Assembly: GCF_001659605.2 (NCBI RefSeq)
Contig: NC_035178.2
Coordinates: 6,831,213-6,895,212 of the forward strand
Source of the DNA: Manihot esculenta
Taxonomy: Eukaryota; Streptophyta; Magnoliopsida; Malpighiales; Euphorbiaceae
Length of the DNA: 64,000 bases
Direction: 5' to 3'
Part shown: positions 1 through 39,534 of the stretch, piece by piece
Position numbering within the stretch: the first letter of the stretch is position 1
Layout: every line of letters begins with the position of its first letter
Notes under the pieces: generated by a model
What the model was told of the DNA's origin: nothing
The model's database searches: none
What the model saw: the letters and a program-made list of their open reading frames with translations, nothing else
Position numbers and translations under genes: made by a program

Positions 1-301
1 TAAAAAAAAACTGCTATCAATTTTAATTTTTTAAATTAAAATTAATTTTTTAACGTGCATTTGCACTTATTGTATATACTATTTATTTATATATATTATT
101 AATTTTTTTATTATTTTAAATAACTGATTGAATTTAATTTTCTATTATTATAATATTAAATTATCATGGATGTACATCATTTATATCTAATTAAAGTTAG
201 TTACAAACGTTTTAATGAAATAAAATTAAGAAAATATATTACTTTGGTTAATTTTATAATTATAAATTAAATCGTATAAATATGATAGTATACGATAACC
301 G

Positions 302-720
302 TTAGGCTTTGCATCCTCTCTGAGCCGAGTCGAGACTCATAGGGACAGAACAGGTCTCTAGTCCGGAGCGCTCCTTGGCAAGCCTGTCTAACTGCTTCCG
401 CCCGGATTTCAGTAAAAGTAACAGGTCGGGTAGCCAAAAAGCCCAAATCCAGAAAGCGGAAATTTGGCTATGTGATTTGATAAGAGAAAATATAGCAGGT
501 CCAGTCACTTTGCAACCCTACTCATTTGGGCATCGGGGAGAATTAAATGGCCGCCTGACATGGAGAGGGTCTCTGTGTTATCCGTACGTACAGACCAATG
601 CGACAGGAAATGTGACTTTATAATAGAAAGACCGTTATACGTTACTGGCGGATAGAGGAAAAGGGCATAAAAAAGGAGGCACACCTTTTTCTAAAGACAA
701 ACTTATACACACTGAAAAAA
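302..720 (+). mobile_element. GC-richer island, probable LTR-type element remnant
   Basis: A block of ordinary complexity stands out from very AT-rich surroundings. It has no convincing reading frame, only short chance ORFs on both strands. Near its 3' side are the words attaaatggccgcctgac (about 543) and gaccgttatacgttactgg (about 630), followed by an AT-rich, TATA-like ataaaaaagg and a purine run. The same arrangement recurs near 54.3-54.7 kb, with differences that are mostly transitions (compare gacagttgtgcatcactag near 54635). I infer two decayed members of one repeat family, most like an LTR or TRIM/LARD end. No ends, target duplications or coding remnants were recognised. Confidence 0.4.
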
Positions 721-3700: not shown

Positions 3701-5160
3701 TAACTTTTAACTTTTAAATTTATTATAATTATAGCAAATTTTTAAATTAATTTTAATAAAATTTAAGTTAACTTACACCACATCTACATATTGATTATTT
3801 TTAATATATAAATAACTTCATTAACTAGAATTAAACTAATTAAAATTCTAAATCTTTAATTATATAAAAATTTTAAATTATAAAATTGAAATACTTAATT
3901 CTCTCTTTTTTAAATAATAATATTAATTGAGAATTTTAGATAATTAAGAGTTTAAGACTTTAATTAAAATTTAATTTAAATTAATCAGAGTATAGTAAAA
4001 ATAATAAGCAGAGCTAATTTAAATCAAGATTAATTTAAAAATTATTATAATTATAATAAATTTAAAAATTGAGATTTATAAATATAAAAATTCATAAAAT
4101 TATGATTATTTTACCAATACACCTTATATTATTAATAAGTTAATAGTTAAACATATTCTTTAACATTATAAAATATTTTTTAAAGTAATTATTACTGCAT
4201 AAAATGTATCATTAATTATTAAACTCATTTTATTAACTACATGCTAAATTTATTATTCTAACAGTTAACAGCAAAAAAAAATAAATTTACTTTTGATTTT
4301 ATTATAATTATATTCTATATTTTTTTATTAATTAAAATTTGATCCTTTAAAATTGTTTTAATTGTATTCTGCTATTATTTATACTGTTAAAAACTAACAT
4401 AATTGTCACGTAACGCTAATACTACATCAGCCACATCAGTAAATTTCAGAATAAAATTGATAATAATTTAAAATTTTAGAATAAAATTACAACAAAACTA
4501 AAGTGTAGAGTTTTTTTAGTAATTACTTATTTTATTAATAATTTTTTTAAAAGATAGAGAAATGAAAATTGAATTTATAATTTTAAATAAATTATTTTTT
4601 TAACCGTTTAATCAAATCAGACTGTAGAATCAAATATTTAATTTATATATATATTTTTTGAAATTCACTCTAAATATTAATATAATTTAGAAAAAAGTGA
4701 TAGATTAGTATTATAATTGAGAACTAAAAAAATAATTTAAAAAATGCATCTTAAAAAATTATTTTATTATTTTTAATATTTTCAAATTGAATTATGTTAA
4801 ATATGATTTTAAATTATTTTTTAATAATATTTAATAAAATTATTTTTTTAATAATAATTTTTTAAATAATGCTAAATAGTAATCATATTAAATTGATTAA
4901 AAAATGTAGTTGATAATGATTTTAGTTAAAATAAAATCAAGATAAATTATTATTATTATAAAATTATTGATAAAATTAAAAAAATTAAATGATAATATAA
5001 ATAATAATTTTTAAATATATTTAAAAATGAAAAAAAGTAATTTGATAATTTTATAAATTTCCAAATATATTTAGTTAAACATTAAAAAAAAATTTAATTG
5101 ATAAAAAATAAAAAAAAATAAAATAAAATTGTAATAAAAATAAGGTATAAATTTGTTTTA
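721..5160. other. AT-rich intergenic DNA
   Basis: This is about 4.4 kb of very AT-rich sequence with many homopolymer and simple A/T runs. I see no supportable gene, RNA gene or intact mobile element. The only ORF over 60 codons (2639-2830, minus) is low-complexity and has no recognisable domain. Confidence 0.6.
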
Positions 5161-5205
5161 TAATTAATTCTGAATATTGTGGAGGTTGGAGGGTTACATG
5201 ACAGT

Positions 5206-5303
5206 CACGTGGCAATTTGGTTGGCTTGTCAGCGATACAAATAACACGTCAGTAGAGTAATTACACGCTTGTTTTTTTGCCCTTTTAACTCTTATTATAA
5301 ATA
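5206..5303 (+). promoter_or_regulatory. Putative promoter of the FLS-like gene: G-box and TATA
   Basis: A perfect G-box CACGTG lies at 5206-5211, followed by ttggttggc (the complement of an AC-rich MYB-type element) and an ACGT-core word aacacgtcag. A TATA box (tataaata) sits at 5296-5303, about 52 bp before the start codon at 5355. G-box plus MYB-type elements are common in flavonoid-pathway promoters. Function here is inferred from sequence and position only. Confidence 0.5.
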
Positions 5304-5354
5304 TGCAATTTGTTCCTCAAGGCATTATAGCTTATTCACCATATCTGCATAGCA

Positions 5355-6510
5355 ATGGAGATAGAGAGAGTGCAAATTCTATCCCATGGGGGGCTTGAGG
5401 AGCTACCTCCCCAATTTGTCCGCCCCGCCCACGAACAGCCGCAAAACACCAAAGCCATTGAAGGGGTCACTGTTCCTGTGATTTCATTGTCTCAGCCACA
5501 TGATGCTCTCGTTGATGAGGTCTTTAGGGCAAGTACTGAATGGGGTTTCTTCCTCATCACAGATCATGGCATGCCATCATCTTTAATCCAACGGTTACAA
5601 GAGGTAAGCCAGGAGTTCTTTGCTCTGCCACAGAAGGATAAGGAGGCCTATGCCAATGATCCTGCTAATGGAAAATTTGAAGGCTATGGGACAAAGATGA
5701 CCAAATCTCATGATGAAAAGCTTGAGTGGATTGATTATTTTTTTCATGTAATGTCTCCTCCTTCTAGAGTAAATTACGAGATCTGGCCCAGAAATCCTCC
5801 TTCTTATAGGTAAATCTGCCGTTTCTCTGTTAACCCATCTCGAGTTTTCAAGTTCAATGTTTCAGTTTTGTGTTCTGTACAGGGAAGTCTGTGAAAAGTA
5901 CAAGGAGGAAATCCTGAGACTTACAGATGAGCTACTAAAATTGCTGTCAGAAGGGCTAGGCTTGGAAGAAAAAGTACTGAAATCCCATCTGGGTAGTGAA
6001 GAAATAGAGCTGGAAATGAAAATCAACATGTACCCACCATGCCCACAGCCTCAACTGGCGTTGGGAGTTGAACCTCACACAGACATGTCCGCTCTCACCA
6101 TTCTTGTTCCAAACGATGTTCCAGGTCTTGAGGTGTGGAAAAATGGCAACTGGGTTTCTGTTCAATACCTTCCTGATGCGCTCTTCGTTCACTTAGGAGA
6201 TCAGCTTCAGGTTCTAAAGTGAATCTGTTTGTGATTTTCTGAGTCATTAGCTAATAGTTTTCGGCGTCTGAATATGAAATAATTTAAGTTTCAGGTGCTT
6301 AGCAATGGAAAATATGAGAGTGTTCTTCACAGAAGTCTGGTGAACAAAGAAAGAATGCGAATGTCATGGGCAGTGTTCATTGCACCTCCACATCAGGCAT
6401 TGATCGGACCTCTTCCAGAGCTCGTGGATGATGAGAAGAATCCTGCCAAATTTTCAACCAAAACGTTTGCGGAGTACCGTTACAGGAAATTCAATAAGCT
6501 TCCACAGTAA
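5355..6510 (+). CDS. Flavonol-synthase-like 2-oxoglutarate/Fe(II) dioxygenase
   Basis: Three exons (5355-5809, 5883-6210, 6295-6510) with GT/AG borders join in frame to 332 residues, close to the roughly 335 of flavonol synthases. The N-terminus carries an FLS-like motif (ELPPQFVRPAHEQP). The DIOX_N domain is followed by the Fe2OG core: iron ligands H217 and D219 (in PHTDMSALTIL) and H273, and the 2-oxoglutarate pair R283/S285 (RMS). FLS makes flavonols from dihydroflavonols and is normally cytosolic. Numbering runs four behind Arabidopsis FLS1 as I remember it. Two FLS1 substrate-pocket positions differ: H132 corresponds to Y128 and E295 to A291, while the F134 and F293 equivalents (F130, F289) are kept. 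It could be a true FLS or an FLS-like paralogue with another flavonoid substrate. I am confident of the family but not the substrate. Confidence 0.88.
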
Positions 6511-7715
6511 TTGCAATATTATATAAACTTACAAATGTAACTGTATTCTCAATGTGCTTTCTATGGAAAATTAATATTAACCATGGATTATGATGGAACT
6601 CGAACACACATGATCAATATTTATAGTAGAATCAATCATCCCCACCCACATATCTTATGGTTATGTTCTATGTCGTCTGTACTAAATTTCTTTAGTTTCC
6701 TGCTTCCTTGGAATTTTAAGCTTTGTCTGTACTTCGATTTAAATGAATTATCCAGTAGTGAATGTACTTTGTACTATGCTATTATTCAATATATATATAT
6801 ATATATGGTTAAAATCACATGTATTATATTTTCTTTTTCTAATTACACCCTCTATGTTTCATGCATATCACAGTGGATTGCCTAGCAAGCTCAGATAAAA
6901 AAGTGGATAAATTGAACTTCGAGTGCTGTAATTGTTTGGGACTCTATCACTTGTTGATCCCATCCTCATTTATTTTGGATTTATCTCTATTTTCGTAAGT
7001 TTTGTTATGTATGCTTTGGTAATTTAGTTATCGTGTCGCATAAATTAAACTCTTAATCTTGAGTGGTACATAAATATCTATTTAATTTAAAAAAATATTT
7101 ATTTAAATCGAATTTATATACACGCTAAATTATCAAAAATGATATGTTATTGGCTCTTCTCATAAATGAATAAATTAATAAAACAATGAGGTTAGAAAGC
7201 TTCCGGACCTAATGGATTTTCAAAGATTTTCTTTCAAAAGCATTGGGACTTAGTTGAAAATAATGTAATATAGTCAGAGATTTTTTTTATTCCTTTTTTC
7301 ATCAAAAGGAGTTAATAGGATCTATATGTCTTTTGTTAATACAAGTGTATATGCCATTGTCACATTAAAGAAATTAGTCTGATAAGCCTGTTTATAATGT
7401 GATTTCTAAATCAATTGTGAATAGGCTTAAACCTTCAAGCATGTTTTTTTTTTATATCTCATGAACATATCTTTTATTAAACAAAGAATTGTATAGGATA
7501 ATATTATCATAGCTCATGAGGTTTGATGTCTGAAATCTGAAAATTAGTCTAAATTTAAGTAAATTTTAGTAAGTTTGATCTCTCTTTTTTGATATTCTCC
7601 CTTATTCTCTTTTTATTTTGTATTTTTGGACCAATAACCGTCGTTTTGTGCCCATACTTCCCTGTCATATTCAAGCTAGTAGTGTGTATGGACCTTATTC
7701 TTTCCTTTCATTTTC
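6511..7715. other. Intergenic spacer downstream of the FLS-like gene
   Basis: This contains the 3' flank of the FLS-like gene and AT-rich DNA, with a short TA run near 6790-6806. ORFs at 6583-6885 and 7589-7795 are hydrophobic or low-complexity translations without domains. I see no gene. Confidence 0.55.
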
Positions 7716-9180
7716 AAACAATAGAACAATTTATAAAAGTCTTGCCTCAGTTATGGCAGAATAATAAATTTATCCTTAAAATATTTAAATTCTAAAAAAA
7801 ATTTAACCCTTTATATTAATTTGTTGTTCACCAACAGCTTCTAAAATAATATTATATTCTTAATAAATGAAATATAATTTATTAATATTTAAGTTATATC
7901 AAATATTAAAATATTTTAATTCTATACTTTCATATTTAGTCTAATAATAAATGCATTTGAATAATTCTGAAAAATCTTAAATTTTACTCTTTAAATCCTG
8001 ATTTTTATTTTTTAAAAAAATTTCGACTTTATTTCTAATACGTGTCAATTATATTAAAAAATAATATAATATTTATATCAAATCAAAAGCTAAAATTTAA
8101 TTTATCATTTTTTAATTGAATTCCAACTTATAAATTATTAATAAATTTAATTTATTCATTATTCTTATTATTTTTTAAATTAAATATTTATTCTTATAAA
8201 TTTTACATAATCTTTTATTATTAAAAACATAAAAATTATTATTTTTAAAATTAACAAAATAATATAATAAATTTATTAGTATTAATTATAAATGTATTAT
8301 GTATTAATAATCAATATTAAATTAAAATAATTTTTTGTAAATGGTAATTATTAAATAAAAATAAAAAAATAAAAATAAAAAAATAAAAAGAATTTTCGAA
8401 AGTTAATTAAGTAATTCTAATGTAAATAGTTTTATGTGAAATTATTTTTTATAAAATTCTAATAATTTTTATAATATTTATTTTTAATTTAAAATTAATT
8501 GTTATAAGAATTTAAGAAAAATTAAATTTTTATATTATTAATTTTATTAAATACAAAAAATTTTAAAAAAATAGTTTATTTATTTTGAATACTTTTAAAA
8601 TTATACATTTAAAGTAAGAGTTTAAAGTTTTTTCCAATTGCCAATAAATTTAAATTTAAATCTAAAAAAATAAAAAACAAGCAGAGTTTTTATGAATTAT
8701 GTCTTAAATATTTGACCAGCAACTCAATTGAGTTGCAATTTTAATTAGTTTTAGATTAAAAATAATAAAGATTAAAATTTAATAATTTTAATTAAATAAA
8801 TATATTTATAAATCAGTTCATAAATTTATTAAATAAATAAACTATTGATATTTAATAAATTGAATATCTATAAATTTCTCGGATTTATTAAATAAGCATA
8901 AAAATTAAATTTGTGTAATCAATCAAGTTAAATTTTAAATTTTTTATTTTTAAAATAAAAATTAAAAAAATAAAATTTAAAATCTCTCAAATTTATTTAA
9001 ATATATTTAACACCGAAATATACTCTAAATTTAGATATACTTATCAAGCCAGATCGACCTGATCTGAAAAGTTTTATTTTTTCAACAGTAAAAGGAATTA
9101 ATATGAGCCCTGCCAAGAAGTAATAAGAACTGATTTAAATATACTTGTGTTAGAGGTATACTAGAACTTTTGCAGGAATA

Positions 9181-9716
9181 GGGCAATGGTCACTTTCGGT
9201 GGAAAGGGTTAGATTTGGTTCTTCGCACACTATAATAACTGACTTTCTCATGGTGGTGGTTGGGATTGGTCACTAAAAATTGTTAGTGATTCTGGCAGTG
9301 TTTTAACGATTAATCAAAGCATAGACGTCATCTCTAGAAATGTAAGTTGCGGAGTTAGAGTTCATGTAAACCAAATTAACCAAAAAAGGAACAAAGAGGT
9401 GACAAGAGGTTGATGAAACGAAAAGGGATAAGGAACCAAGACTGCGACGCTGGGGTTAATAAGAAATTTTATCATACAACTGTAATTTTTATCGATTAAA
9501 AATATAAAAAAATATTATATAGGTTTATAACTTTTTCATTTTAATGTCTTCATAATCTATAAAAAATAAAGACGATTAACATGTATATACGAAATTCAGA
9601 AGGGTTATGTTTTGCTTGCTTGTTTACTTGTTTGTTTATGTATGATTGATGCTATGATTGAGATGCCTGTTTGTTTGTGGAACATTCGGGGACGAATGTT
9701 CTTAAGGGGGGAAAAA
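9181..9716 (+). mobile_element. Ty3/gypsy-type 3' internal tail with polypurine tract (left copy)
   Basis: The sequence directly before the LTR contains ggggacgaatgttcttaa followed by a purine tract (aaggggggaaaaa, about 9704-9716). This layout is typical of the 3' internal end of plant Ty3/gypsy elements, where the tract primes plus-strand synthesis next to the 3' LTR. No gag or pol domain is present in this block and no 5' LTR or primer-binding site was found, so the element is truncated. The part from 9181 to about 9480 is of ordinary complexity but not identified. Confidence 0.6.
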
Positions 9717-12371
9717 TGTAATACTCGGCTAGATTCCGGCATCGGAATCTCTACCTTCCGGCGGAATCTCCGTTGGAATCAGGAATTCTGAAGATGCCAG
9801 AGGCTTCTAGAGGGGTAAAATGTGTTTTTCTAAAATGTTTTTACTGATTTCATGGTTTTAAATGAAAAAGGATTTGAGTTTTGAAAAGAAAAGACCAAGG
9901 AGGCAATTGCCAGGTTCGGCCGCCGAAAGTGAAGTTCGGCCGCCGAACATGGAAAGGCTTCGGGAGTGCCTTTGGCCTCCGAAAGTCTTATTTGAACAAA
10001 CCAGGTTCGGCCGCCGAATCTCAAGTTCGGCTGCCGAACTTGCATGAGTTTAGGGGGCACGTTAGGCCGCCGAAGGAGGTTTAGCTGGCCGCCGAAGGAG
10101 GTTTAGCTGGCCGCCTATAAAAGGCTCTCAGACCGAAAATGGGTGAGTTTTCTCCCCATTCTCGTGCTCAGGTGTGTTCATGTCCTCCTTAAGTCGTTTT
10201 CATGCTTTTTCTTCAATCCTTCACGTTTTCATGAGTTTTATTCTTGGTTTTGAAGAGTTTTCAAGCTTAGATCGAAGTTTTGGGAGCTTGGAGCTTTTGG
10301 AGCTTGGATTCTCCACACCTCCGAGTTAGGGATCACACCACCCTCGATCTTCAAGAGGTAAGTGTAGATCTTTGCTTCCCTAGTGTTTTTATAAAGTTTT
10401 ATGAAGGTTTTAATGGTAGAGTATGGGTAGATATGCATGTTAGGATTTATGTGGGTTTTATGCCCAATGTATGTTATGTGATGTTTGTGTTGAGGAGTTT
10501 ATGTTAGTTTATGCTCCTTTATGCTTGTGGGAGTGAGTATGCATGATTGGGAGAGAGTATGTGAGGATTTGGGTTGTTTTGATGGTTTTGGCCTATGTGG
10601 GTTATAAGCTATCCATGTATGTTTTTGTTGTTGTTTTTGGAGTTTAATAAAGCTATTAAGCTCCTTTGTGCATGGTTAAGGGCTTGTGCATGTTTTGGTA
10701 AGGTTGGGTGTTTGTTTTGGGGTGTTGGAAGGTTTGGGAGGCTGTTGATGCATGAGAAGCTGAGTTCTGCCCTTCTGGGAAGAACTCAGATTCGGCCGCC
10801 GAAGGTGGTTTCGGCCGCCGAACCTGCCTTTGGATGCATGGTTTGGCCGCCTAATCTTGCCCCCGAAAGTTGAGTTTTGGCGTGAAAGCAGACTTTCAGC
10901 CGCCGAAGGAAGGATTCGGCCGCCGAAAGTGCCTGACTTTCGTCTCTGGAGTGGGACTTTCGGCCGCCGAAGGTGCCGCCGAAAGTGCCCGAGTTTCGTC
11001 TCTGGAGGAAGGGTTCGGCCGCCGAAGGTGCCGCCGAAAGTGCCCTGTCCAGCCTTTTCATGGGTGTTTTCTATGCATGTTTTAGTGATGTTTAAAGGGG
11101 TTTTTGGGGGTATGATTATGAGTTGTTTAGAGTATGTTTGGCACCTCATTCGAGTCCACCTGTGTAGGATCGGACCCGAGGGACCGAGGAGGCCAGTAGT
11201 GCTAGCAGTTGCAGAGTCAGTCAGCGTCTGCCAGGAGGTGAGTAGAACTAAACTTAATCTTTTATGTACGAAATCTAATGCCTAAAGCATGTTCATGCAT
11301 CATGATTACATGTAATAGGATTGATTGCACTAGTTTCACGAATATGACGCATTGCATTATTTGATGTTGATTCAGGAGGTTTGGACCAAGGCGACTTCAA
11401 TAGCCCATTTCTGTCATGGAGTCTTGGGTAAGTCCTCTGAGAGCCGGACAAGTACATATAGGAAAGTCACTGTGAGCTCTCTGTGGACTAGGTACCCCGT
11501 CATGTATGTGAAAGTCCTGTGTGAGCTCCTTTGGGGGAGCCGGGCACCGACAGAGGGAATTTTGAGGTCATTTCCGATCCTTGAGAGTAAAGGATGCTAG
11601 CAAAAATGAACTCTCAAAAACAATCCGTGGGGAATATTTATCTGCATGAGCCCCGAGACGGACCAGATACAGTTATGTGATTTCTTTGTGTTCTGACGCA
11701 TTTCATGAGAGCATGTAATTAATGAACTGTTTTCTATGTTTCTACTCACTGGGCTTTTTAGCTCACCCCTCTCCTCTAACCCCAGTGTTGTAGGTTTGAG
11801 GTTGATCGGGAAGTCTCAGAACAAGGGCTAAGTTTATGTAATAGTTTTAGATTAGCACTTTTAGTGTGGACATGTATTATAAATTGAGATAATGCTTTGT
11901 AAGAGAATGTAATGTAAAGTAGAGCAGAGTTATGTTTATGGATTAGTACTGTGCTTGGCCCTAAGACTTGGTTAGTCCCTGTTCAATACATGATGTATGT
12001 AATGTTTTAGATGTTGAGTTGTGTTGAACTAATCTTGTGGCATGTGTTGTTTACCACGTTATGTTATGGATGAGGACCCTAGTAGAGGTCTTATGTTTGT
12101 GGTTTGTTGGATGTATCCCAGCTTGATGTATGTTATGTTGACCCGGCTAGAGTTTTGAGGGCTCTAGAAAAAAGGGGTTTCTTTATGTTTCCAGTTATGT
12201 TGCATACAGGACAAGCTCGGTTTATACATCATATGTTTCAATTTTTATGTTAAAGTTTTGTTCATGTATGGGATTTGACCAGGTGATAGGAGGTATGTTT
12301 GGCTTGCTACGGGTCCCGGCGGCCTTAAGCCGATCTGGATCCTAGCGCCGGTGGCGGTTCGGGCCGTTACA
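9717..12371 (+). mobile_element. LTR of a gypsy-type retrotransposon (left copy)
   Basis: The element begins TGTAATACTCGGC and ends GGGCCGTTACA, giving canonical TG...CA ends over about 2655 bp. A TATA box (tataaaag, 10116-10123) marks the likely U3/R transition. Two clusters (about 9915-10110 and 10790-11045) carry repeated GC-rich words of the form TTCGGCCGCCGAA, very different in composition from the AT-rich flanks. A polypurine tract directly upstream identifies it as a 3' LTR. Many antisense and sense ORFs here are artefacts of the GC-rich repeats. It differs from the right copy mainly by a ~55-bp repeat unit near 10985-11040 that is absent there. Confidence 0.8.
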
Positions 12372-12398
12372 GAGGGGTATCGGTTTTCGGGCTGTTAC
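12372..12398 (+). repeat. Partial duplication of the LTR tip (left copy)
   Basis: The LTR end (gggccgttaca, ending 12371) is followed 27 bp later by a second near-copy (gggctgttaca, ending 12398), after which the PMD reading frame resumes. This could be a duplicated LTR terminus, the end of a second nested LTR, or the true LTR end. The mirror copy is at 17458-17485. Confidence 0.5.
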
Positions 12399-14679
12399 AA
12401 CCCGTGCCACAATGTCGTAGTCTCCTCTCATTAGAGCGTCTTGTGTTGTATCGACGCCCGTCAAATGATGGCTCCTGTTAAGCTTCTTCAGAATTTCAAC
12501 ATCATCGTCAGCCATAGATATATTTAAATCAGGAGGTTGAGATCGAGGTCTTGAACTCTCCCCAACAATTGGATCCTGAGTTGGAAAGCCGAAATCCCCT
12601 GAATAAGGGGTTGCAGAAAATAACTCAGGAAAATCCGAAGAAAACAAGCTAAGTCGGCTTGAGGGATCATCAAGTGATTGTCGAGGGAATGCTGGAAAAA
12701 CAGACTCTGATGGAGTATGTGGTTGCGCAGGGGAGAAGAAGTCAAACGACGTGCTAGCTTTCCCTTCCCCTCCAGTCTGATCGTAATTGGGAGGAGTTGG
12801 AGTAAATGACTGAAAAGGCATAGAAGAAGGCCCCGGTGTCCATCCTGTATACTGACTCTGAAAATCGTCTCCATAAGTGGGCATTTATGAAGATTGGCCC
12901 AATTCTGTGTATGAGCCGTATGGATGGAATGCAACTGGTGATGGTATTTGCATTACACCAGGGTTTGGCATAGGCCGTGGAATCTCCGTCTCCCTTGATG
13001 GCCTGGTAGTGTGGCGACGATATCGTGGGGGATTCCTGGAGGAGGAGGGTGCGTCGTCGTGTACATCATTTGGAAGCGGTTGGGAAGGTGGCGCCGGCTG
13101 TGGAGGTGGTATTTGGGAAATGCGATCGAACAAACGAAGTGCATGAAACATTGAATTGACCGCATTTCCAATCTTGTCTACTGTTGGGTGACGAACTTGA
13201 CTCGCCCATAAGCGGCAGTTCTCCAGACCATCCTCCTGTAAAATGTATTTATTAAGATTTCTATCCCCAAAGTTAAGTAATGTAAATATTTATATAATTA
13301 ATACATAAATCATAGTGAATCGCCCATTACCACAGCGTCGATTGATGCACCCCTTTGAGACACCCACCGACGTGCAATCATTCTGTACCATTCCATGTAC
13401 TGTGAATGGTAATATAATGGCTGGGTCAGAGTATTGCTGGCGACAATCCGTCGGTGCCTTGATTCCCAGAACGTAATCCAATGTTGGTTCTCGGTCATCC
13501 AGTTCGTAGCTAAAGAAGTTAATTTTATTGAATGCATATCAGCTGTTTGACGGGGTGGTTGTGGAATGGGCTGAGAAAATCCAAACTGCCTTAGCACCTT
13601 GTCAGGTCGATGCCACTCAACAATATGAAAACAAATAAGTGGAACAACTGATTTCCATATTTGTCTACCCTGTAGACAGTAATCTGACATACCGTCCACC
13701 ACAACATCAGAGTATGGCTCCCATATAAACTGTGTATATAAGATAATGTTAAAGGTTTAAATTGTATAATTTGAATTGACATGTAATTTAAAGGTATAGA
13801 ATGATGACCTCTTCGGCTTCCATTCGATCAAGTTGGTACCGAAGTTGCACAAGCACATGCGTTGTAACTTTAGTAATACTTTTAGCATTACTCCACCTAT
13901 AGAATTTATAGTTTGGAATTAGTAACAAGATGTTGGACTTGATAGTATAGTAGTACACAATTTATAGCACATACCGACTGCCAATCGGTGTATCTGGAAG
14001 GGGATTTATCTGGGAGATGGTAGGGGCAATTGTTTTATTCTGTCCCATGCACAAATTTGTAAAATATGCAGTGGCCCGCCAATTTGCTGCACTTGTGGTG
14101 ACGTTGCCCTGCAAAGCTCTTTATAAAGTCAAGCAAGGCAGGCTGCACCCCAGCTATATTGACCACAGGTGTTGAAATTAGCGAGTAGTGGCAAAAACAT
14201 TAGATTGACCCTATGAGCAGACTGATCAACAAATAGGGATCCACCTATTAGTCGTAAAAGGAAAGCCCGAGCATGCCTCTGAATAGTAACATCATCAGCG
14301 TACTCTGGAATTTGGTCAAAGTTATCTCTCAACCAGGTAAGTGCAACAGTATTTCCTTTCATAACTTCACGATCCGGGACTAACCCAAGCAAATCTTGAC
14401 ATATTAATTGCCAAGGCTATCCCGTAGTCCCAATAACAGCACTACCATCAACAGGCAATCCAGATATCAGTCCCATATCTTGAAGTGTAACAGTACACTT
14501 TCCATGGGGTAACATAAAAGTATGTGTTTCTGGTCTCCATCTCTCAACCAAAGCCGTTATGAGGTGGTGATCTAAGTAGAAGAAGCCTAAAATTTATATA
14601 TTTCTCTCCACATTTTTTTCACTCTATTTTTAGCTAATTTACCTCTTAAAATTTTTGGAACAACATAAATATAAGCCAT
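12399..14679 (-). pseudogene. Plant mobile domain (PMD, MAIN-like) pseudogene, left copy
   Basis: This is the mirror image of the right-arm copy described at 15178-17457, read on the minus strand from near 14679 towards the LTR. It has the same exon structure and the same lesions: in-frame stops at 14417-14419, 14129-14131 and 12885-12887, and the same frameshift in an A/T run near 14033. It differs from the right copy by only a few bases; in the C-terminal tail MPTYGDD replaces MPTYEDD and GDFGFP replaces GDFDFP. The 3' end is cut by the LTR. PMD (Aminotransferase-like mobile domain) proteins are known both as host silencing factors and as passengers of plant transposons. This copy cannot make a full-length protein. 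Confidence 0.85.
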
Positions 14680-14780
14680 AACTCAATTAAAACAGAAAAA
14701 AAAGAGAATAAGTGAGAATTAAGAAAAAGCTGAGGGAAAAAAGAAATATGAGAGGTAGAAAATCACTGGTGTTGGAGGGG

Positions 14781-15075
14781 TATTTATAGGAAAATGTTGG
14801 GATGGGTTGGCGCCTCTTTAAGAGACGCCAGGTGAATTTCCGAGGCAGGCTGGCGCTTCTTTAAGAAGCGCCAGACTGACCCTGGCGCTTCTTAAAAGAA
14901 GCGTCAGGCTGACCCTGACACCTCGGGAAGCTTGGACTGACGCTTTCCGAGACGCTTCTTTTAAGAAGAGCCAGGGTCAGTCTGGCGCTTCTTAAAGAAG
15001 CGCCAGCCTGCCTCGGAAATTCACCTGGCGTCTCTTAAAGAGGCGCCAACCCATCCCAACATTTTCCTATAAATA
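14781..15075. promoter_or_regulatory. Mirror-image bidirectional promoter at the palindrome centre
   Basis: Two TATA boxes face outwards: tatttata at 14781-14788 (minus) and tataaata at 15068-15075 (plus). Each lies about 105 bp before the start codon of its PMD copy. The roughly 280 bp between them contain the 45-bp asymmetric spacer (14906-14950), the only central sequence not duplicated. Because both sides are the same sequence, each PMD pseudogene has the same core promoter. Activity is inferred. Confidence 0.55.
14810..15048. repeat. Cluster of six short imperfect palindromes (ggcgcttctttaagaagcgcc type)
   Basis: Six units of 21-25 bp, three on each side of the centre, each fold on themselves. 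Examples are ggcgcctctttaagagacgcc near 14811, ggcgcttctttaagaagcgcc near 14853, and a variant with aaaag at 14884-14905. Mirror versions lie between 14951 and 15048. Units are separated by words such as agactgaccctgg. They could be transcription-factor sites, transposase sites, or hairpins in a transcript. No known motif was recognised. Confidence 0.75.
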
Positions 15076-15177
15076 CCCCTCCAACACCAGTGATTTTCTA
15101 CCTCTCATATTTCTTTTTTCCCTCAGCTTTTTCTTAATTCTCACTTATTCTCTTTTTTTTTCTGTTTTAATTGAGTT

Positions 15178-17457
15178 ATGGCTTATATTTATGTTGTTCC
15201 AAAAATTTTAAGAGGTAAATTAGCTAAAAATAGAGTGAAAAAAATGTGGAGAGAAATATATAAATTTTAGGCTTCTTCTACTTAGATCACCACCTCATAA
15301 CGGCTTTGGTTGAGAGATGGAGACCAGAAACACATACTTTTATGTTACCCCATGGAAAGTGTACTGTTACACTTCAAGATATGGGACTGATATCTGGATT
15401 GCCTGTTGATGGTAGTGCTGTTATTGGGACTACGGGATAGCCTTGGCAATTAATATGTCAAGATTTGCTTGGGTTAGTCCCGGATCGTGAAGTTATGAAA
15501 GGAAATACTGTTGCACTTACCTGGTTGAGAGATAACTTTGACCAAATTCCAGAGTACGCTGATGATGTTACTATTCAGAGGCATGCTCGGGCTTTCCTTT
15601 TACGACTAATAGGTGGATCCCTATTTGTTGATCAGTCTGCTCATAGGGTCAATCTAATGTTTTTGCCACTACTCGCTAATTTCAACACCTGTGGTCAATA
15701 TAGCTGGGGTGCAGCCTGCCTTGCTTGACTTTATAAAGAGCTTTGCAGGGCAACGTCACCACAAGTGCAGCAAATTGGCGGGCCACTGCATATTTTACAA
15801 ATTTGTGCATGGGACAGAATAAAACAATTGCCCCTACCATCTCCCAGATAAATCCCCTTCCAGATACACCGATTGGCAGTCGGTATGTGCTATAAATTGT
15901 GTACTACTATACTATCAAGTCCAACATCTTGTTACTAATTCCAAACTATAAATTCTATAGGTGGAGTAATGCTAAAAGTATTACTAAAGTTACAACGCAT
16001 GTGCTTGTGCAACTTCGGTACCAACTTGATCGAATGGAAGCCGAAGAGGTCATCATTCTATACCTTTAAATTACATGTCAATTCAAATTATACAATTTAA
16101 ACCTTTAACATTATCTTATATACACAGTTTATATGGGAGCCATACTCTGATGTTGTGGTGGACGGTATGTCAGATTACTGTCTACAGGGTAGACAAATAT
16201 GGAAATCAGTTGTTCCACTTATTTGTTTTCATATTGTTGAGTGGCATCGACCTGACAAGGTGCTAAGGCAGTTTGGATTTTCTCAGCCCATTCCACAACC
16301 ACCCCGTCAAACAGCTGATATGCATTCAATAAAATTAACTTCTTTAGCTACGAACTGGATGACCGAGAACCAACATTGGATTACGTTCTGGGAATCAAGG
16401 CACCGACGGATTGTCGCCAGCAATACTCTGACCCAGCCATTATATTACCATTCACAGTACATGGAATGGTACAGAATGATTGCACGTCGGTGGGTGTCTC
16501 AAAGGGGTGCATCAATCGACGCTGTGGTAATGGGCGATTCACTATGATTTATGTATTAATTATATAAATATTTACATTACTTAACTTTGGGGATAGAAAT
16601 CTTAATAAATACATTTTACAGGAGGATGGTCTGGAGAACTGCCGCTTATGGGCGAGTCAAGTTCGTCACCCAACAGTAGACAAGATTGGAAATGCGGTCA
16701 ATTCAATGTTTCATGCACTTCGTTTGTTCGATCGCATTTCCCAAATACCACCTCCACAGCCGGCGCCACCTTCCCAACCGCTTCCAAATGATGTACACGA
16801 CGACGCACCCTCCTCCTCCAGGAATCCCCCACGATATCGTCGCCACACTACCAGGCCATCAAGGGAGACGGAGATTCCACGGCCTATGCCAAACCCTGGT
16901 GTAATGCAAATACCATCACCAGTTGCATTCCATCCATACGGCTCATACACAGAATTGGGCCAATCTTCATAAATGCCCACTTATGAAGACGATTTTCAGA
17001 GTCAGTATACAGGATGGACACCGGGGCCTTCTTCTATGCCTTTTCAGTCATTTACTCCAACTCCTCCCAATTACGATCAGACTGGAGGGGAAGGGAAAGC
17101 TAGCACGTCGTTTGACTTCTTCTCCCCTGCGCAACCACATACTCCATCAGAGTCTGTTTTTCCAGCATTCCCTCGACAATCACTTGATGATCCCTCAAGC
17201 CGACTTAGCTTGTTTTCTTCGGATTTTCCTGAGTTATTTTCTGCAACCCCTTATTCAGGGGATTTCGACTTTCCAACTCAGGATCCAATTGTTGGGGAGA
17301 GTTCAAGACCTCGATCTCAACCTCCTGATTTAAATATATCTATGGCTGACGATGATGTTGAAATTCTGAAGAAGCTTAACAGGAGCCATCATTTGACGGG
17401 CGTCGATACAACACAAGACGCTCTAATGAGAGGAGACTACGACATTGTGGCACGGGT
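15178..17457 (+). pseudogene. Plant mobile domain (PMD, MAIN-like) pseudogene, right copy
   Basis: Manual exons: 15178-15214, 15271-15882, 15961-16048, 16128-16526, and 16622 into the LTR. The product is PMD-like: a TALVERWRPETHTF start, TLQDMGLISGLPVDG, then LVPDREVMKGNT, RHARAFLLRLIGGSLF, QIGGPLHILQICAWDRI, a W-rich DWQ/WMTENQHW region, then a Pro/Ser-rich tail. This matches the family annotated as MAIN-like or 'serine/threonine phosphatase 7 long form homologue'. It is broken: in-frame TAG (15438-15440), TGA (15726-15728) and TAA (16970-16972), plus a one-base shift in the A run near 15821-15826. Splice sites otherwise remain intact, so decay is fairly recent. The 3' end is cut by an LTR tip at about 17458. 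It is probably a transposon-borne or captured gene, now non-functional, although its promoter region survives. Confidence 0.87.
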
Positions 17458-17485
17458 TGTAACAGCCCGAAAACCGATACCCCTC
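17458..17485 (-). repeat. Partial duplication of the LTR tip (right copy)
   Basis: Two successive LTR-like tips occur: tgtaacagcccgaa at 17458 and tgtaacggcccgaa at 17486. This mirrors 12372-12398. Confidence 0.5.
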
Positions 17486-20085
17486 TGTAACGGCCCGAAC
17501 CGCCACCGGCGCTAGGATCCAGATCGGCTTAAGGCCGCCGGGACCCGTAGCAAGCCAAACATACCTCCTATCACCTGGTCAAATCCCATACATGAACAAA
17601 ACTTTAACATAAAAACTGAAACATATGATGTATAAACCGAGCTTGTCCTGTATGCAACATAACTGGAAACATAAAGAAACCCCTTTTTTCTAGAGCCCTC
17701 AAAACTCTAGCCGGGTCAACATAACATACATCAAGCTGGGATACATCCAACAAACCACAAACATAAGACCTCTACTAGGGTCCTCATCCATAACATAACG
17801 TGGTAAACAACACATGCCACAAGATTAGTTCAACACAACTCAACATCTAAAACATTACATACATCATGTATTGAACAGGGACTAACCAAGTCTTAGGGCC
17901 AAGCACAGTACTAATCCATAAACATAACTCTGCTCTACTTTACATTACATTCTCTTACAAAGCATTATCTCAATTTATAATACATGTCCACACTAAAAGT
18001 GCTAATCTAAAACTATTACATAAACTTAGCCCTTGTTCTGAGACTTCCCGATCAACCTCAAACCTGCAACACTGGGGTTAGAGGAGAGGGGTGAGCTAAA
18101 AAGCCCAGTGAGTAGAAACATAGAAAACAGTTCATTAATTACATGCTCTCATGAAATGCGTCAGAACACAAAGAAATCACATAACTGTATCTGGTCCGTC
18201 TCGGGGCTCATGCAGATAAATATTCCCCACGGATTGTTTTTGAGAGTTCATTTTTGCTAGCATCCTTTACTCTCAAGGATCGGAAATGACCTCAAAATTC
18301 CCTCTGTCGGTGCCCGGCTCCCCCAAAGGAGCTCACACAGGACTTTCACATACATGACGGGGTACCTAGTCCACAGAGAGCTCACAGTGACTTTCCTATA
18401 TGTACTTGTCCGGCTCTCAGAGGACTTACCCAAGACTCCATGACAGAAATGGGCTATTGAAGTCGCCTTGGTCCAAACCTCCTGAATCAACATCAAATAA
18501 TGCAATGCGCCATATTCGTGAAACTAGTGCAATCAATCCTATTACATGTAATCATGATGCATGAACATGCTTTAGGCATTAGATTTCGTACATAAAAGAT
18601 TAAGTTTAGTTCTACTCACCTCCTGGCAGACGCTGACTGACTCTGCAACTGCTAGCACTACTGGCCTCCTCGGTCCCTCGGGTCCGATCCTACACAGGTG
18701 GACTCGAATGAGGTGCCAAACATACTCTAAATAACTCATAATCATACCCCCAAAAACCCCTCTAAACATCACTAAAACATGCATAGAAAACACCCATGAA
18801 AAGGCTGGACAGGGCACTTTCGGCGGCACCTTCGGCGGCCGAAAGTCCCACTCCAGAGACGAAAGTCAGGCACTTTCGGCGGCCGAATCCTTCCTTCGGC
18901 GGCCGAAAGTCTGCTTTCACGCCAAAACTCAACTTTCGGGGGCAAGATTAGGCGGCCAAACCATGCATCCAAAGGCAGGTTCGGCGGCCGAAACCACCTT
19001 CGGCGGCCGAACCTGAGTTCTTCCCAGAAGGGCAGAACTCAGCTTCTCATGCATCAACAGCCTCCCAAACCTTCCAACACCCCAAAACAAACACCCAACC
19101 TTACCAAAACATGCACAAACCCTTAACCATGCACAAAGGAGCTTAATAGCTTTATTAAACTCCAAAAACAACAACAAAAACATACATGGATAGCTTATAA
19201 CCCACATAGGCCAAAACCATTAAAACAACCCAAATCCTCACATACTCTCTCCCAATCATGCATACTCACTCCCACAAGCATAAAGGAGCATAAACTAACA
19301 TGAACTCCTCAACACAAACATCACATAACATACATTGGGCATAAAACCCACATAAATCCTAACATGCATATCTACCCATACTCTACCATTAAAACCTTCA
19401 TAAAACTTTATAAAAACACTAGGGAAGCAAAGATCTACACTTACCTCTTGAAGATCGAGGGTGGTGTGATCCCTAACTCGGAGGTGTGGAGAATCCAAGC
19501 TCCAAAAGCTCCAAGCTCCCAAAACTTCGATCTAAGCTTGAAAACTCTTCAAAACCAAGAATAAAACTCATGAAAACGTGAAGGATTGAAGAAAAAGCAT
19601 GAAAACGACTTAAGGAGGACATGAACACACCTGAGCACGAGAATGGGGAGAAAACTCACCCATTTTCGGTCTGAGAGCCTTTTATAGGCGGCCAGCTAAA
19701 CCTCCTTCGGCGGCCAGCTAAACCTCCTTCGGCGGCCTAACGTGCCCCCTAAACTCATGCAAGTTCGGCAGCCGAACTTGAGATTCGGCGGCCGAACCTG
19801 GTTTGTTCAAATAAGACTTTCGGAGGCCAAAGGCACTCCCGAAGCCTTTCCATGTTCGGCGGCCGAACTTCACTTTCGGCGGCCGAACCTGGCAATTGCC
19901 TCCTTGGTCTTTTCTTTTCAAAACTCAAATCCTTTTTCATTTAAAACCATGAAATCAGTAAAAACATTTTAGAAAAACACATTTTACCCCTCTAGAAGCC
20001 TCTGGCATCTTCAGAATTCCTGATTCCAACGGAGATTCCGCCGGAAGGTAGAGATTCCGATGCCGGAATCTAGCCGAGTATTACA
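17486..20085 (-). mobile_element. LTR of a gypsy-type retrotransposon (right copy, inverted)
   Basis: TGTAACGGCCC...GAGTATTACA ends with TG/CA termini over about 2600 bp, antisense to the left-arm copy. It carries the same TATA region and GC-rich TTCGGCGGCCGAA-type clusters (about 18810-19010 and 19690-19880). It lacks one ~55-bp repeat unit present on the left. Only a handful of substitutions distinguish the two copies by eye. ORFs within it are GC-repeat artefacts. Confidence 0.8.
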
Positions 20086-20640
20086 TTTTTCCCCCCTTAA
20101 GAACATTCGTCCCCGAATGTTCCACAAACAAACAGGCATCTCAATCATAGCATCAATCATACATAAACAAACAAGTAAACAAGCAAGCAAAACATAACCC
20201 TTCTGAATTTCGTATATACGTATTAATCGTCTTTATTTTTTATAGATTATCAAGACATTAAAATGAAAAAGTTATAAACCTATATAATATTTTTTTTATA
20301 TTTTTAATCGATAAAAATTAGGGTTGTATGATAAAATTTCTTATTAACCCCAGCGTCGCAGTCTTGGTTCCTTATCCCTTTTCGTTTCATCAACCTCTTG
20401 TCACCTCTTTGTTCCTTTTTTGGTTAATTTGGTTTACATGAACTCTAACTCCGCAACTTACATTTCTAGAGATGACGTCTATGCTTTGATTAATCGTTAA
20501 AACACTGCCAGAATCACTAACAATTTTTAGTGACCAATCCCAACCACCACCATGAGAAAGTCAGTTATTATAGTGTGCGAAGAACCAAATCTAACCCTTT
20601 CCACCGAAAGTGACCATTGCCCTATTCCTGCAAAAGTTCT
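20086..20640 (-). mobile_element. Ty3/gypsy-type 3' internal tail with polypurine tract (right copy)
   Basis: This mirrors 9181-9716. The polypyrimidine run tttttccccccttaa at 20086-20100 is the complement of the polypurine tract. The sequence is largely identical to the left copy, with several substitutions near 20220-20330 (left 9480-9590). No pol domains were seen. Confidence 0.6.
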
Positions 20641-21599
20641 AGTAGACCTCTAACACAAGTATATTTAAATCAGTTCTTATTACTTCTTGGCAGGGCTCAT
20701 ATTAATTCCCTTTACTGTTTGAAAAAAAAAAAACCTTCCAAATTAGGTCGACCGGCTCGGTAAGTATATCTAAATTTAGAGGATATTTCGATCGTACGTA
20801 TATTTAAATAAATTTGAGAGATTTTAAATTTTATTTTTTTAATTTCTATTTAAAAAAAATTTAAAATTTAACTTGGTAAAGACTTGTATTGATTACACAA
20901 ATTTAATTTTTATACTTATTTAATAAATCACAGAAATTTATAGATATTTAATTTATTAAATATCAATAGTTTATTTATTTAATAAATTTATGAACTGACT
21001 TATAAATATATTTATTTAATTAAAATTATTAAATTTTAATCTTTATTATTTTTAATCTAAAACTAATTAAAATTGCAACTCAATTGAGTTGCTGGTCAAA
21101 TATTTAAGACATAATTCATAAAAACTCTGCTTGTTTTTTATTTTTTTAGATTTAAATTTAAATTTATTGGCAATTGGAAAAAACTTTAAACTCTTACTTT
21201 AAATGTATAATTTTAAAAGTATTCAAAATAAATAAACTATTTTTTTAAAATTTTTGTATTTAATAAAATTAATAATATAAAAATTTAATTTTTCTTAAAT
21301 TCTTATAAAAATTAATTTTAAATTAAAAATAAATATTATAAAAATTATTAGAATTTTATAAAAAATAATTTCACATAAAACTATTTACATTAGAATTACT
21401 TAATTAACTTTCGAAAATTCTTTTTATTTTTTTATTTTTATTTAATAATTACCATTTACAAAAAATATTTTAATTTAATATTGATTATTAATACATAATA
21501 CATTTATAATTAATACTAATAAATTTATTATATTATTTTGTTAATTTTAAAAATAATAATTTTTATGTTTTTAATAATAAAAGATTATGTAAAATTTAT

Positions 21600-21865
21600 A
21601 TTTTAAATGTTATAAAAATATTGATAATGATTTTTTAATGAATGTGATCAAAATGACTATCATTTATAAGAATAAATATTTAATTTAAAAAATAATAAGA
21701 ATAATGAATAAATTAAATTTATTAATAATTTATATAATATAAAATAGTTCAATAATTCTATTATATTTAATTTGATTTTAAATAAATAAATTTTTTATAA
21801 ATAAAAATAAATCTAATTTTATTATAGAATTTAATTTTTTTCTTAAAAAATTAAATAAATTAAAG
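21600..21865. other. Arm-specific AT-rich segments in the outer right arm
   Basis: Aligned by eye to left positions about 8080-8215, the right arm has extra AT-rich stretches near 21605-21670 and 21735-21860. Either the right arm gained them or the left arm lost them. They have no recognisable element ends. Together with the SINE they explain why the paired-coordinate sum rises from about 29802 to 30101. Confidence 0.55.
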
Positions 21866-22130
21866 TTGGAATTCAGTTAAAAAATGATAAATTAAATTTT
21901 CGCTTTTGATTTGATATAAATATTATATTATTTTTTTAATATAATTGACACTTATTAGAAATAAAGTCTGAATTTTTTTAAAAAAGTAAAAATTAGGGGT
22001 AGAGAGTAAAATTTGAGATTTTTCAGAATTATTTAAATTTATTTATTATGAGACTAAATCTGTAAATTTAAAGTTAAAATGTTTTAACACTCGATATAAT
22101 TTAAATATTAATAAATTACATTTCATTATT

Positions 22131-22256
22131 AAGAATATAATATTATTACATTCCAAGGCTTAGTCTGGTGGAAAGTGCATTCTGTAGCCTTTAAAGATCT
22201 AAGATTCGACTCCCCAACCCTTTATTTAAAAAAAAAAAAAAGAATATAATATTATT
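22131..22256 (+). mobile_element. tRNA-type SINE insertion with 17-bp target-site duplication
   Basis: A 92-bp insert (22148-22239) contains a box-A-like cttagtctggtgg, the word agtgcattctgtagcctt, and a box-B-like agattcgactcccc, and ends in an oligo-A tail. It is flanked by perfect 17-bp direct repeats aagaatataatattatt at 22131-22147 and 22240-22256. The mirror position in the left arm (7845-7861) holds exactly one copy of this 17-mer and no insert, a clean empty site. This is strong evidence for retroposition into the right arm after the inverted duplication formed. It is shorter than many plant SINEs and may be a short or truncated family member. Confidence 0.85.
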
Positions 22257-22385
22257 TTAGAAGCTGTTGGTGAACATCTCATTAATATAAAGGGTTAAAT
22301 TGTTTTTAGAATTTAAATATTTTAAGGAGAAATTTATTATTCTGCCATAACTGAGGCAAGACTTTTATAAATTGTTCTATTGTTT

Positions 22386-23325: not shown

Positions 23326-26300
23326 ATGAGGGGTGCTACTGAGCAATCGTCGGCTGTAGTGGCTGAGAGGATTGAGGACGGTGGAGATAAGGATAAGGAG
23401 AAGAAGAAGAATAAGCGCCGATCTAATCGTCGATCTAAGCAGAATTCTCCTAATCCAGGTTTTTCTTTTTCTTTTTACCTTTTAAATATTTGTTATTGAT
23501 TTACTGGATTGTATAGCTTGTAGAGTAATTCTTGCTATACTCTTATTCTATCAGTTACAGTTGTCTCTGAAGTGGCCAAATATTGATTAATTGTTATGAA
23601 GTTATATCGTGGATGATGATGATGTGAATGTGAATTTTTTTGCTTGTCCTTTCTTCCTTTTGTCGTTTGTTTGGCTTCCTGTTGATCATATGTCCTGTTA
23701 ATTCTTTTTGGGAATTTTGGTGGCTGGCCATTTGTTTCCTTGAATATTATTATGAATTTTAGAAGTTAGAATGATTGTTCCCACCACTAAGTTGCTTAAA
23801 TTTTACAATTATTTGGGCTATGATGATGCATTTGACTTTTCTCGTTCTCGTTCCTGTGATGGCTTCTAAACTTATGTATTTGAGTCCCCTATTTGAATGC
23901 ATGGGTAACATCCAGTCAATGATTTTTGCTTTTATTTTCTTGAACTTGATTATCATGAGAGCAGCTTCTAATTTAGTAAACGGAACATGCGGGGAGTTGT
24001 CACATTCATGTGGTAATGGTGTCCAAACGAAAAATTTTGTATCCTCCTTGAATTGTTCTTCATCAAGGGAGCCAGAATTAGGTGTTCACTTTTTGAGTGA
24101 ACCTGGGCTGACCTCTGCATCAAATGTAGCCTTCAATTCGATGCCTACTATGCATATAATTGAGGAAGTGGAACACGCATTACAATCTGATCTTGAGGGT
24201 GAACCATTGTCCAACTCATGTCCTGAGCCAATTGTTGGTGGAGTTCCCCACCGAAGATGTTCGAACAAGGATGTGTTTCCTTTTGATCAGTTTGGTGGTG
24301 GTGCTCAAGGTAAAATTTTTGCTCCCCACTGGTCTGTGGAGGCAATTAATGAGGCACTAGAGGTTAGTCTGATACCTGATTCATTGACAATGTTGTTGCT
24401 GCATGTAGCTTTCTGGTTATGTTGGTTGAACCAGTTTTTCATTTTTTTTTCCTCCAAATATTTGGCAGAAAGGTAATGCATTCAAAGCACTATTTCATGT
24501 GAATGCTCACAATCGATTTGAGGTAAGTACAAGTTGCTTTGTCATACTCATAATGTTCTCAAGTAATAAGTTTATTCACGCTCTGTATTTTTTGGTTATT
24601 GATGGGCAGTTTGCATATGCTGTTTCTGATGACAGGCATACTGCAGAATTGAGGGAGTTACGACAGATGTTCTCATAAGCGGAATTTCTGCACAGAACAG
24701 AGCTGTAAGTCTGGAGTTTAACTGTTCTCAGTAATTTTCGAATTGGTGATGTTTATGTCATTTTTTTTTACCATAGTAAGAAGTTAGCTAGATAATGACT
24801 AGGAATTGTATTTGAAATTCGATGCTTGATTGATTTGTCTATTGTTAGCAAGGAATGCTATGTTTGATTATCTGTGTAGTATTAATAGACAAACTCACCA
24901 TATACACCTCTGATCACTTATGGAGGGATTGTGTTTCTGATGGTTTGATATTACTTCTTTTTTCCCCACCTGTAGGTGGAAGGGGACAGAGTGGTCATTA
25001 AAGTTGATCCATTGGCATTCTGGACTAAGATGAAAGGTCCAAATGGGCAATCAGCCAATGTTTCTTTGGCTGAAGAGCGCAATTTTGTTGTAGAAGCTGG
25101 TGAGACATCTGGGGGTAGCTGCAAGGGTAAAAGTAAAGTGGATGTGGATTATGAACATTCTGATCCTGGAAGTTCCAGCCTTCCTCAAAAGGGAATATAT
25201 TATGAGGATTCTTCTTGTTCTGGTGAGGGTGTTCACCACGAAGTGAATGGTCCAGTGGGTTGTAATTCTGTTAATGGGTATAACCTACCTTATTCAGATT
25301 CTTTACAATTTGGTCATTCTACTGGAAAGGATGAAGATATGAATGGTGTGGACATGCTATGCAAAATTATTAGTTCATACCCATCAAAACGCCCAACTGG
25401 TAAAGTTGTTGGCATTGTTGAGAAATCCCTTCGGCGTGATGCTGTTGTTGGTTTTCTAAATGTTAAGCAGTGGTTTTGTTATAGAGAAGGTTTTACAAAA
25501 GACACAAAGAAGAAGAAAAATTCACCATCTATGTCTGCCCATGAGTACATTCATCTTACACCTACTGATCCAAAATTTCCCAAAATGATGGTACTTGTGA
25601 GAAGCTTGCCTGACTCCATCAAGAAAAGATTGGAGGAAGGAGATACTACAGTGGAGATGGAGCTGGTAGCTGCACAGATTGATAACTGGGATGAAGAATT
25701 CCCATTGCCATATGCCCATGTCTCGCACATATTTGGACGGGGTAGTGAAATGGAGCCACAACTTAGAGCAATTTTATATGAAAATGCAATTTGTTCTTCG
25801 GATTTTTCTTCAGAATCTCTTTCTTGCGTACCATGCAATGCTTGGGAGGTGCCAGCAGAGGAGCTTAAAATTAGAAGAGACATTAGAAATTTGTGCATAT
25901 TTACCATCGACCCTTCCACTGCCACTGACTTAGATGATGCTCTCTCTGTGGAAAGGTTGCCTAATGGCATTTTCAGGGTGGGTGTTCACATCGCTGATGT
26001 CTCATATTTTGTTTTACCTGACACAGCCTTGGATAAAGAAGCTCAGAGTCGATCAACAAGTGTCTACATGTTGAGACGCAAATTACCAATGTTGCCTGCA
26101 CTTCTTTCTGAGAATCTTGGTTCACTTAACCCTGGAGTAGATAGACTTGCATTTTCTATTTTCTGGGACTTCAACAGTGCCGGAGATGTCATGGATCATT
26201 GGATTGGTCGCACTGTGATACGTTCTTGTTGCAAGCTTTCGTATGAAGATGCTCAGGCTATGATTGATGGGATGACCAGTGAGGAGACCACTGACTCATT

Positions 26301-39316: not shown

Positions 39317-39534
39317 CCAAAACTAGTCTCATGGATCAGCAGCAAGCTAGTCCATCTTACTCCATAATTAATTGATTAATTAAATCCTTAATCCCAATTA
39401 CTTGCATTATTCATTGTCTCTTGCCTTACCTCTTTCCTCTCTTTCTTGTAATTCCCTCTTCTATATACATAAAACCCCCATCTCTGTACTCCTCCGCCAA
39501 CCTTGCAAGCTTTTCAGCCACCTTGCAGCAAGCC

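Follow-up and report, generated by a model that had tools for sequence, protein, structure and literature searches.

A 14.7-kb interstitial palindrome in cassava with a PMD-carrying MULE in each arm: likely fold-back origin and possible hairpin potential

Mu killer of maize, reportedly described by Slotkin et al. in 2005, is an accidental inverted duplication of a Mutator-like element (MULE) and the textbook case for the question of how plants first recognise a new transposon. Here we analyse a larger natural candidate, a palindrome of about 14.7 kb in cassava (Manihot esculenta), which lies in a 64,000-nucleotide stretch of contig NC_035178.2 (assembly GCF_001659605.2, positions 6,831,213 to 6,895,212, forward strand), called the window below and numbered from its first letter. 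Each palindrome arm is the same mosaic of AT-rich DNA, the end of a long terminal repeat (LTR) retrotransposon and an internally deleted MULE carrying part of a gene for a plant mobile domain (PMD). Surviving relatives of the element elsewhere in the genome make its formation readable from the sequence, and there is a second palindrome with which to compare it.

Mu killer is the closest known locus, and the present one resembles it in form. In maize too (PMC3440606), an internally deleted MULE was duplicated in inverted orientation beside an ordinary gene, the duplicated end is the one adjoining the transposase gene, and the product could be hairpin or antisense RNA against active relatives. 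In contrast to Mu killer, the present palindrome has its centre in the terminal array of the element and not inside the gene. Its arms are 7.2-7.4 kb long, where Mu killer has about 1.3 kb of mudrA, and they also contain 1.9 kb of other DNA and a nested LTR; any silencing by it is putative. It also lacks the transposase coding sequence and the terminal inverted repeats (TIRs) of the element, for which reason we do not class it with the Mu killer type.

In terms of formation, the nearest parallels are fold-back duplications. In humans the signature is a spacer that occurs once and is bordered by short inverted sequences (PMC3907307), and natural inverted repeats near a break drive inverted duplication in yeast, at high frequency in cells deficient in Sae2 or Mre11 (PMC10622511). 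The present palindrome shares with these a unique spacer, inverted edge sequences and a spacer that reads as native to one arm; it differs in being interstitial and in a plant, with about 7 kb copied and with inverted units that come from a transposon's own array. Aberrant duplication of MULE end sequence also occurs in MULEs with multiple long TIRs, which are mostly tandem TIRs in amplified elements as opposed to one large inverted duplication including other DNA; slippage on TIR-internal repeat motifs was considered for one such family, without clear support (PMC3310237). Finally, the palindromes of the willow W chromosome are large, nuclear and of plant origin, with high-identity stretches and reported gene conversion (PMC7023750), and form a published exception to the rarity of long plant palindromes outside organelles that an earlier note on this DNA had asserted. 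They are gene-bearing and about 200 kb in size, whereas the present 14.7 kb consist of mobile-element and AT-rich DNA, in which conversion is inferred from one sequence. Among the matches listed in a literature search over titles and abstract openings, we recognised neither this locus nor any cassava locus resembling Mu killer.

The palindrome and the make-up of its arms

The palindrome is confirmed as real and interstitial. A search of the genome (640,357,471 bases in 86 contigs) places the window at C18:6831213-6895212, within a long contig of a large genome, and comparison of the window with itself gives inverted matches that span 7716-22385, with a core self-match of 7944 columns at 99.1% identity (E = 0; each arm pair is counted twice). 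The arms can be aligned end to end, with 83 substitutions in 7113 aligned bases (98.83% identity, gaps not counted), and a script finds a perfect inner arm of 18 bp on either side of a 45-bp spacer (Table 1). The size and spacer noted earlier are thereby borne out, as is the observation that paired positions sum to a constant within each segment: gaps of at least 4 bp inside the arms leave the right arm longer by 108, 129, 68 and 12 bp and the left arm longer by 14, 5 and 55 bp. GC content is 0.231 and 0.206 in the bins 8001-10000 and 20001-22000 and 0.408-0.456 in the five intervening 2-kb bins. The earlier interpretation thus stands in terms of a single inverted duplication whose RNA would fold; it had missed the duplicated content, the route of formation and the second palindrome of the family, and the mosaic of the arms and their patchy divergence go beyond what it saw.

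Table 1. Features of the palindrome, in window coordinates
Feature	Position	Strand	Remarks
Left arm	7716-14905	+	7190 bp; taken as the copied arm
Right arm	14951-22385	-	7435 bp; taken as the parental arm
AT-rich outer left arm	7716-9590	.	patchy divergence from the right arm
End of retrotransposon internal region	9591-9716	+	polypurine tract directly before the LTR; remaining retrotransposon missing
LTR, left arm	9717-12399	+	taken as 2683 bp, TGTAA...TTACA; abuts the MULE; TATA-like motif 10116 (+), inward
PMD-MULE interior, left arm	12400-14590	-	C-terminal part of the PMD gene
PMD-MULE promoter-side end, left arm	14591-14905	-	TATA-like motif 14782 (-), outward; start of subterminal hairpin array; terminal TIR missing
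Innermost left-arm 18 bp	14888-14905	+	part of a MULE array unit; perfect to the first mismatch, 14887/14969
Spacer	14906-14950		45 bp; proposed fold-back loop; holds the hairpin cassette
Innermost right-arm 18 bp	14951-14968	-	partner of 14888-14905
PMD-MULE promoter-side end, right arm	14951-15266	+	TATA-like motif 15068 (+), outward
PMD-MULE interior, right arm	15267-17457	+	outer edge by alignment
Mirror LTR, right arm	17458-20085	-	one 55-bp unit shorter; edges by alignment; TATA-like motif 19680 (-), inward
AT-rich outer right arm	20212-22385	.
SINE-like insertion	22131-22256	+	right arm only; poly-A tail; 17-bp target-site duplications 22131-22147 and 22240-22256

An assembly artefact, caused by a hairpin adapter that went unnoticed or by head-to-head joining of two haplotypes, could be entertained in that the palindrome is available here from one assembly only, but we consider it very improbable: the flanks are unlike, the 83 substitutions and several indels separate the arms, divergence by segment ranges from 0% to 13%, which is unfit for a copied read, and an insertion resembling a short interspersed element (SINE), with its own target-site duplication, is present in one arm only.

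The PMD (PF10536) is detected in an open reading frame (ORF) at 13310-13756 on the minus strand (E = 2.1e-22), and a genome search with window 13310-14800 returned 43 match rows, by our own count at least 38 loci including that of the window, a lower bound as 40 of 190 first-look candidates were scored; identities among the matches listed are 85-97%, excluding those of the window itself. Matching the PMD is not in itself proof of a MULE. Nineteen of the 37 other loci were read with several kb of flank (L009-L024, L030/L031, L032 and L033). In L010, the one copy scanned against Pfam, a MULE transposase (PF10551, E = 1.9e-06, score 28.6 bits with the cut-off at 27.6) is followed on the same strand by the PMD (three ORFs, E down to 4.5e-30), and TIR ends with matching flanking duplications are present in all four copies for which both ends were fetched and found (9/9 positions on C15, 10/10 on C11, 8/9 on C4 and 8/9 on C1). 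Given a transposase and a PMD on one strand and TIRs with flanking duplications, we identify the parent as a MULE that carries a PMD; its C11 copy measures about 8.8 kb. Capture of the PMD by MULEs is known from several grasses and Amborella (PMC5418596).

Relative to the C11 copy, the window has an internal deletion of 5477 bp (14590 corresponds to C11:6868485 and 14591 to C11:6873963), and the stretch deleted in the window holds, in the C4 copy (L010/L027), both the transposase ORF and the beginning of the PMD. Five of six copies compared match from 12397-12401 to 14590 at 94-96% identity and the sixth (L007) from 12927 at 94%; in 16 loci compared, the high-identity match is limited to the PMD-MULE stretch ending at 14590.

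The polypurine tract and the LTR in Table 1 were called by the usual rules for retrotransposon features and for LTR ends (TGTAA start, TTACA end), and we take them to be such. Across the same 16 loci the LTR has only relatives at 72-88% identity, and such relatives lie within or adjoin 9 of the 19 PMD-MULE loci read with flanks. The left-arm LTR has one additional 55-bp unit of a tandem repeat (10959-11013). Inverted pairs are seen beside PMD-MULE copies in L013 (6856-9250), L020 (6967-9899) and L032 (2242-3299), and these overlap matches to the window LTR at 74-83% (L013, L020) and at 95% over 173 columns (L032).

In the 16 loci the AT-rich outer part gave only short weak matches (60-147 columns, 75-81%). 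An arm consisting of one uniform transposon was rejected, as the strong match ends at 14590 while the LTR and AT-rich part reach the lower identities just given. A giant fold-back transposon with TIRs of 7.2 kb that moves as a unit would have the same shape, the one point in its favour, and is hardly credible to us: the arms hold partial elements, the weak matches of the outer part speak against it, and no flanking duplication is visible at 7716/22385, on which ground a giant TIR transposon was rejected for now.

The centre of the palindrome and its route of formation

The palindrome centre lies inside the subterminal hairpin array of the MULE. In related copies an array of short hairpin units, followed by the TIR, extends beyond the equivalent of 14591; perfect 10-bp inverted repeats within 100 bp number 16.9-69.0 per kb in five MULE ends, compared with densities of 0.02 per kb for window 23001-64000 and 0 for window 1-7715, under a filter of at least 35% GC that lowers the background in AT-rich DNA. 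The hairpin cassette of the spacer is present near the PMD-MULE end in 7 of 13 other ends examined, and in all 7 it is flanked by inverted array units of 13-29 columns (29 with one mismatch in C4). These relatives are non-palindromic at that site, which makes them an independent test of whether the inverted units are native.

Among the relatives read across this end, the nearest one, C4 (L027), remains colinear beyond the spacer and into a further array unit. The loop of the cassette is asymmetric, and its right-arm reading fits C4, C11 and C5, as judged by eye. We take the right arm, together with the spacer, to be parental and the left arm to have been copied from it. The single-copy spacer is colinear with one arm, going by most of the informative relatives, and the inverted repeat at the spacer edges pre-exists in relatives; these two features characterise fold-back. 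From 12872 to 14905 the only differences between the arms are a single-base indel and a substitution (14887/14969) that immediately adjoins the innermost 18 bp; the latter may be the mismatch expected from annealing of unlike array units, and a later mutation would look alike.

We consider it likely that the palindrome arose by fold-back, since native inverted units flank the cassette in relatives and the spacer is mostly native from the right arm. The events would have begun with a PMD-carrying MULE that lost about 5.5 kb internally, transposase included, and into which an LTR retrotransposon inserted. The MULE would then have broken in its subterminal hairpin array, and pairing between two inverted array units would have folded the broken strand back on itself, leaving the 45-bp loop, whereupon synthesis from the 3' end would have produced a reverse copy of about 7.2 kb. 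Finally, joining of the new end to the left flank would have cost the MULE its terminus. The terminal TIR is indeed absent from the window, a 110-base TIR query from L026 giving window matches of only 12-13 bases (E of at least 0.17), as expected if the broken end was resected. One-sided indels and the SINE-like insertion would have followed, most of the arms being kept near-identical, probably by gene conversion.

A real inverted duplication might also have come about by another route without intrastrand fold-back, such as sister-chromatid fusion or end-joining of an inverted copy. This would suit the outer joins at 7716 and 22385, which are without clear common sequence, and the second palindrome on C12, which is centred outside the array. 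We think it improbable in view of the unique spacer, the native inverted units in relatives and the spacer's colinearity, for the most part, with one arm; absence of a spacer is a key feature of the sister-chromatid (U-type) model according to PMC3907307.

Several points weigh against fold-back in the array. Complementarity of the innermost 18 bp holds for any palindrome and is in itself no proof. The cassette is nearly palindromic and its orientation rests on a few bases judged by eye; that of C15 fits the left-arm reading by the same judgement, and those of L036, L038 and L040 are ambiguous. Six of the 13 ends are without the cassette (L028, L029, L034, L035, L037 and L041), two of which (L034 and L041) proved not to be right ends of the element. 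Further, the published cases are at chromosome ends or in Sae2/Mre11-deficient yeast, and an interstitial case needs an extra joining step. These two, L034 and L041, were rejected for want of a match to 14591-14730.

Divergence between the arms and potential for silencing

The arms have diverged in patches. In the outer part, segments with limits set after the differences were seen differ by 3.45% (7716-7860), 13.06% (7861-8128), 0.15% (8129-8811), 7.85% (8812-9110), 0.27% (9111-9480) and 4.55% (9481-9590), and those of the inner part by 0% (9591-9716), 0.38% (9717-12399), 0.09% (12400-14590) and 0.32% (14591-14905). When the 70 substitutions of the outer 1853 bases were placed at random 5000 times, no placement gave a clean run as long as the longest one observed (370). 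As divergences of 13% and 0.1% occur together, a single age hardly explains both, and the patchiness, seen in this one sequence, probably results from arm-to-arm gene conversion. Conversion with dispersed copies could also be its source, which would count against that account.

The SINE-like insertion marks a change on one side: the left arm holds the empty site, with the 17 bp present once (7845), and L022 has a relative of the insertion at 82% identity. In the inner arm (9591-14905) transitions make up 12 of 13 substitutions as opposed to 36 of 70 in the outer arm (Fisher p = 0.006), an excess compatible with methylated cytosines.

With the LTRs inserted as they are, the arms might be transcribed towards each other. 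Promoters facing the centre would yield a transcript that runs antisense to the PMD, crosses the centre and continues in sense, that is, a hairpin RNA, as suggested by the inward TATA-like motifs of the two LTRs. That RNA read through the palindrome would fold, as the earlier note anticipated, agrees with the predicted folding energy of the central 675 nt, which is -583.6 kcal/mol, while 20 shuffled versions have a mean of -162.8. The hairpin could feed small RNAs against related PMD-MULE copies: 12400-14590 has 2171 21-mers, 1607 of which have an exact counterpart in one or more of 16 other loci (412-992 in each), and none of the 2171 is found in window 23001-64000. PMD small RNAs, if made, would thus have targets, the 21-mers being common to related loci. 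In the tea plant, PMD genes are among the loci of phased small RNAs (PMC10673657), which says nothing about the present locus.

Other observations count against such activity. The four motifs named in Table 1 were picked from 37 TATA-like matches in 9717-22385, and each LTR has two more, one directed inward (11878+, 17973-) and one directed outward (10387-, 19409+). Only 108 of 2663 LTR 21-mers recur in the other fetched loci, and the transposase coding sequence is absent from the inverted duplication. Maize plants in which Mu killer silenced MuDR made short antisense transcripts and no long hairpin (PMC3440606).

We regard it as doubtful that the palindrome is an active hairpin or silencing locus, and lean slightly towards the account as a whole, which joins a fold-back origin to a possible hairpin function. 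A serious contender, of which we stop somewhat short of being persuaded, is that the same fold-back left an inert relic whose promoters are silent and make no hairpin RNA, the identity of the inner arms reflecting gene conversion or youth. Every identified part is mobile-element debris, and the excess of inner-arm transitions is as expected with methylated cytosines; yet methylation and hairpin activity can coexist, and read-through could start from the inward motifs in both LTRs or from a plus-strand ORF with a DIOX_N domain that lies to the left.

A second palindrome and the neighbourhood

On C12, two PMD match rows of opposite strand lie 507 bp apart and belong to a second palindrome (L030 6499-8800), with a self-complement match of 2305 columns at 99.1% identity and a spacer of 18 bp, counted by eye and in agreement with the script. 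Sequence of its right arm is colinear 8-12 bp further than that of its left in 5 of 5 copies compared. Its left arm gives way to an LTR end and then ATACC at a point beyond which the mirror arm goes on, and an LTR element has probably inserted there. Its centre lies in the element interior outside the hairpin array, which tells against the array as the necessary site; C12 is a separate event that supports recurrence and not the array as sole seed. Such close opposite-strand pairs occur in 2 of the at least 38 detected loci. C4:10161600-10162900 (L035) was rejected as a third palindrome, as its 233-column arms are only 88% identical with a MULE end between them, as in two head-to-head elements (nested insertion).

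A broader proposal, which we put forward as speculative and unlikely, is that this family of PMD-MULEs acts as a seed of palindromes: wherever an element breaks internally or close by, the array being one hotspot, the end would recurrently fold back into a large inverted duplication and so produce Mu killer-like hairpin loci able to silence the family in trans, here driven by the promoters of the nested LTRs that face the centre and kept intact by gene conversion between the arms. If array-bearing transposons do repeatedly make their own hairpin loci, self-silencing would be a by-product of transposon structure and not a rare accident.

The palindrome is flanked on the left by the DIOX_N ORF (5331-5813) and on the right by an ORF with an RNB domain (24976-27243, plus strand). 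Scans of the window with Rfam at the gathering threshold and for tRNAs were empty. Further to the right, AT-rich repeats of about 79% identity in opposite orientation (36841-37380 and 43246-43771) flank an ORF with a GRAS domain (39376-41031), and an AT-rich quasi-palindrome at 35559-35923 matches its own complement at about 74.5%. An ORF on the minus strand at 57938-58606 presumably encodes an AP2/ERF transcription factor.

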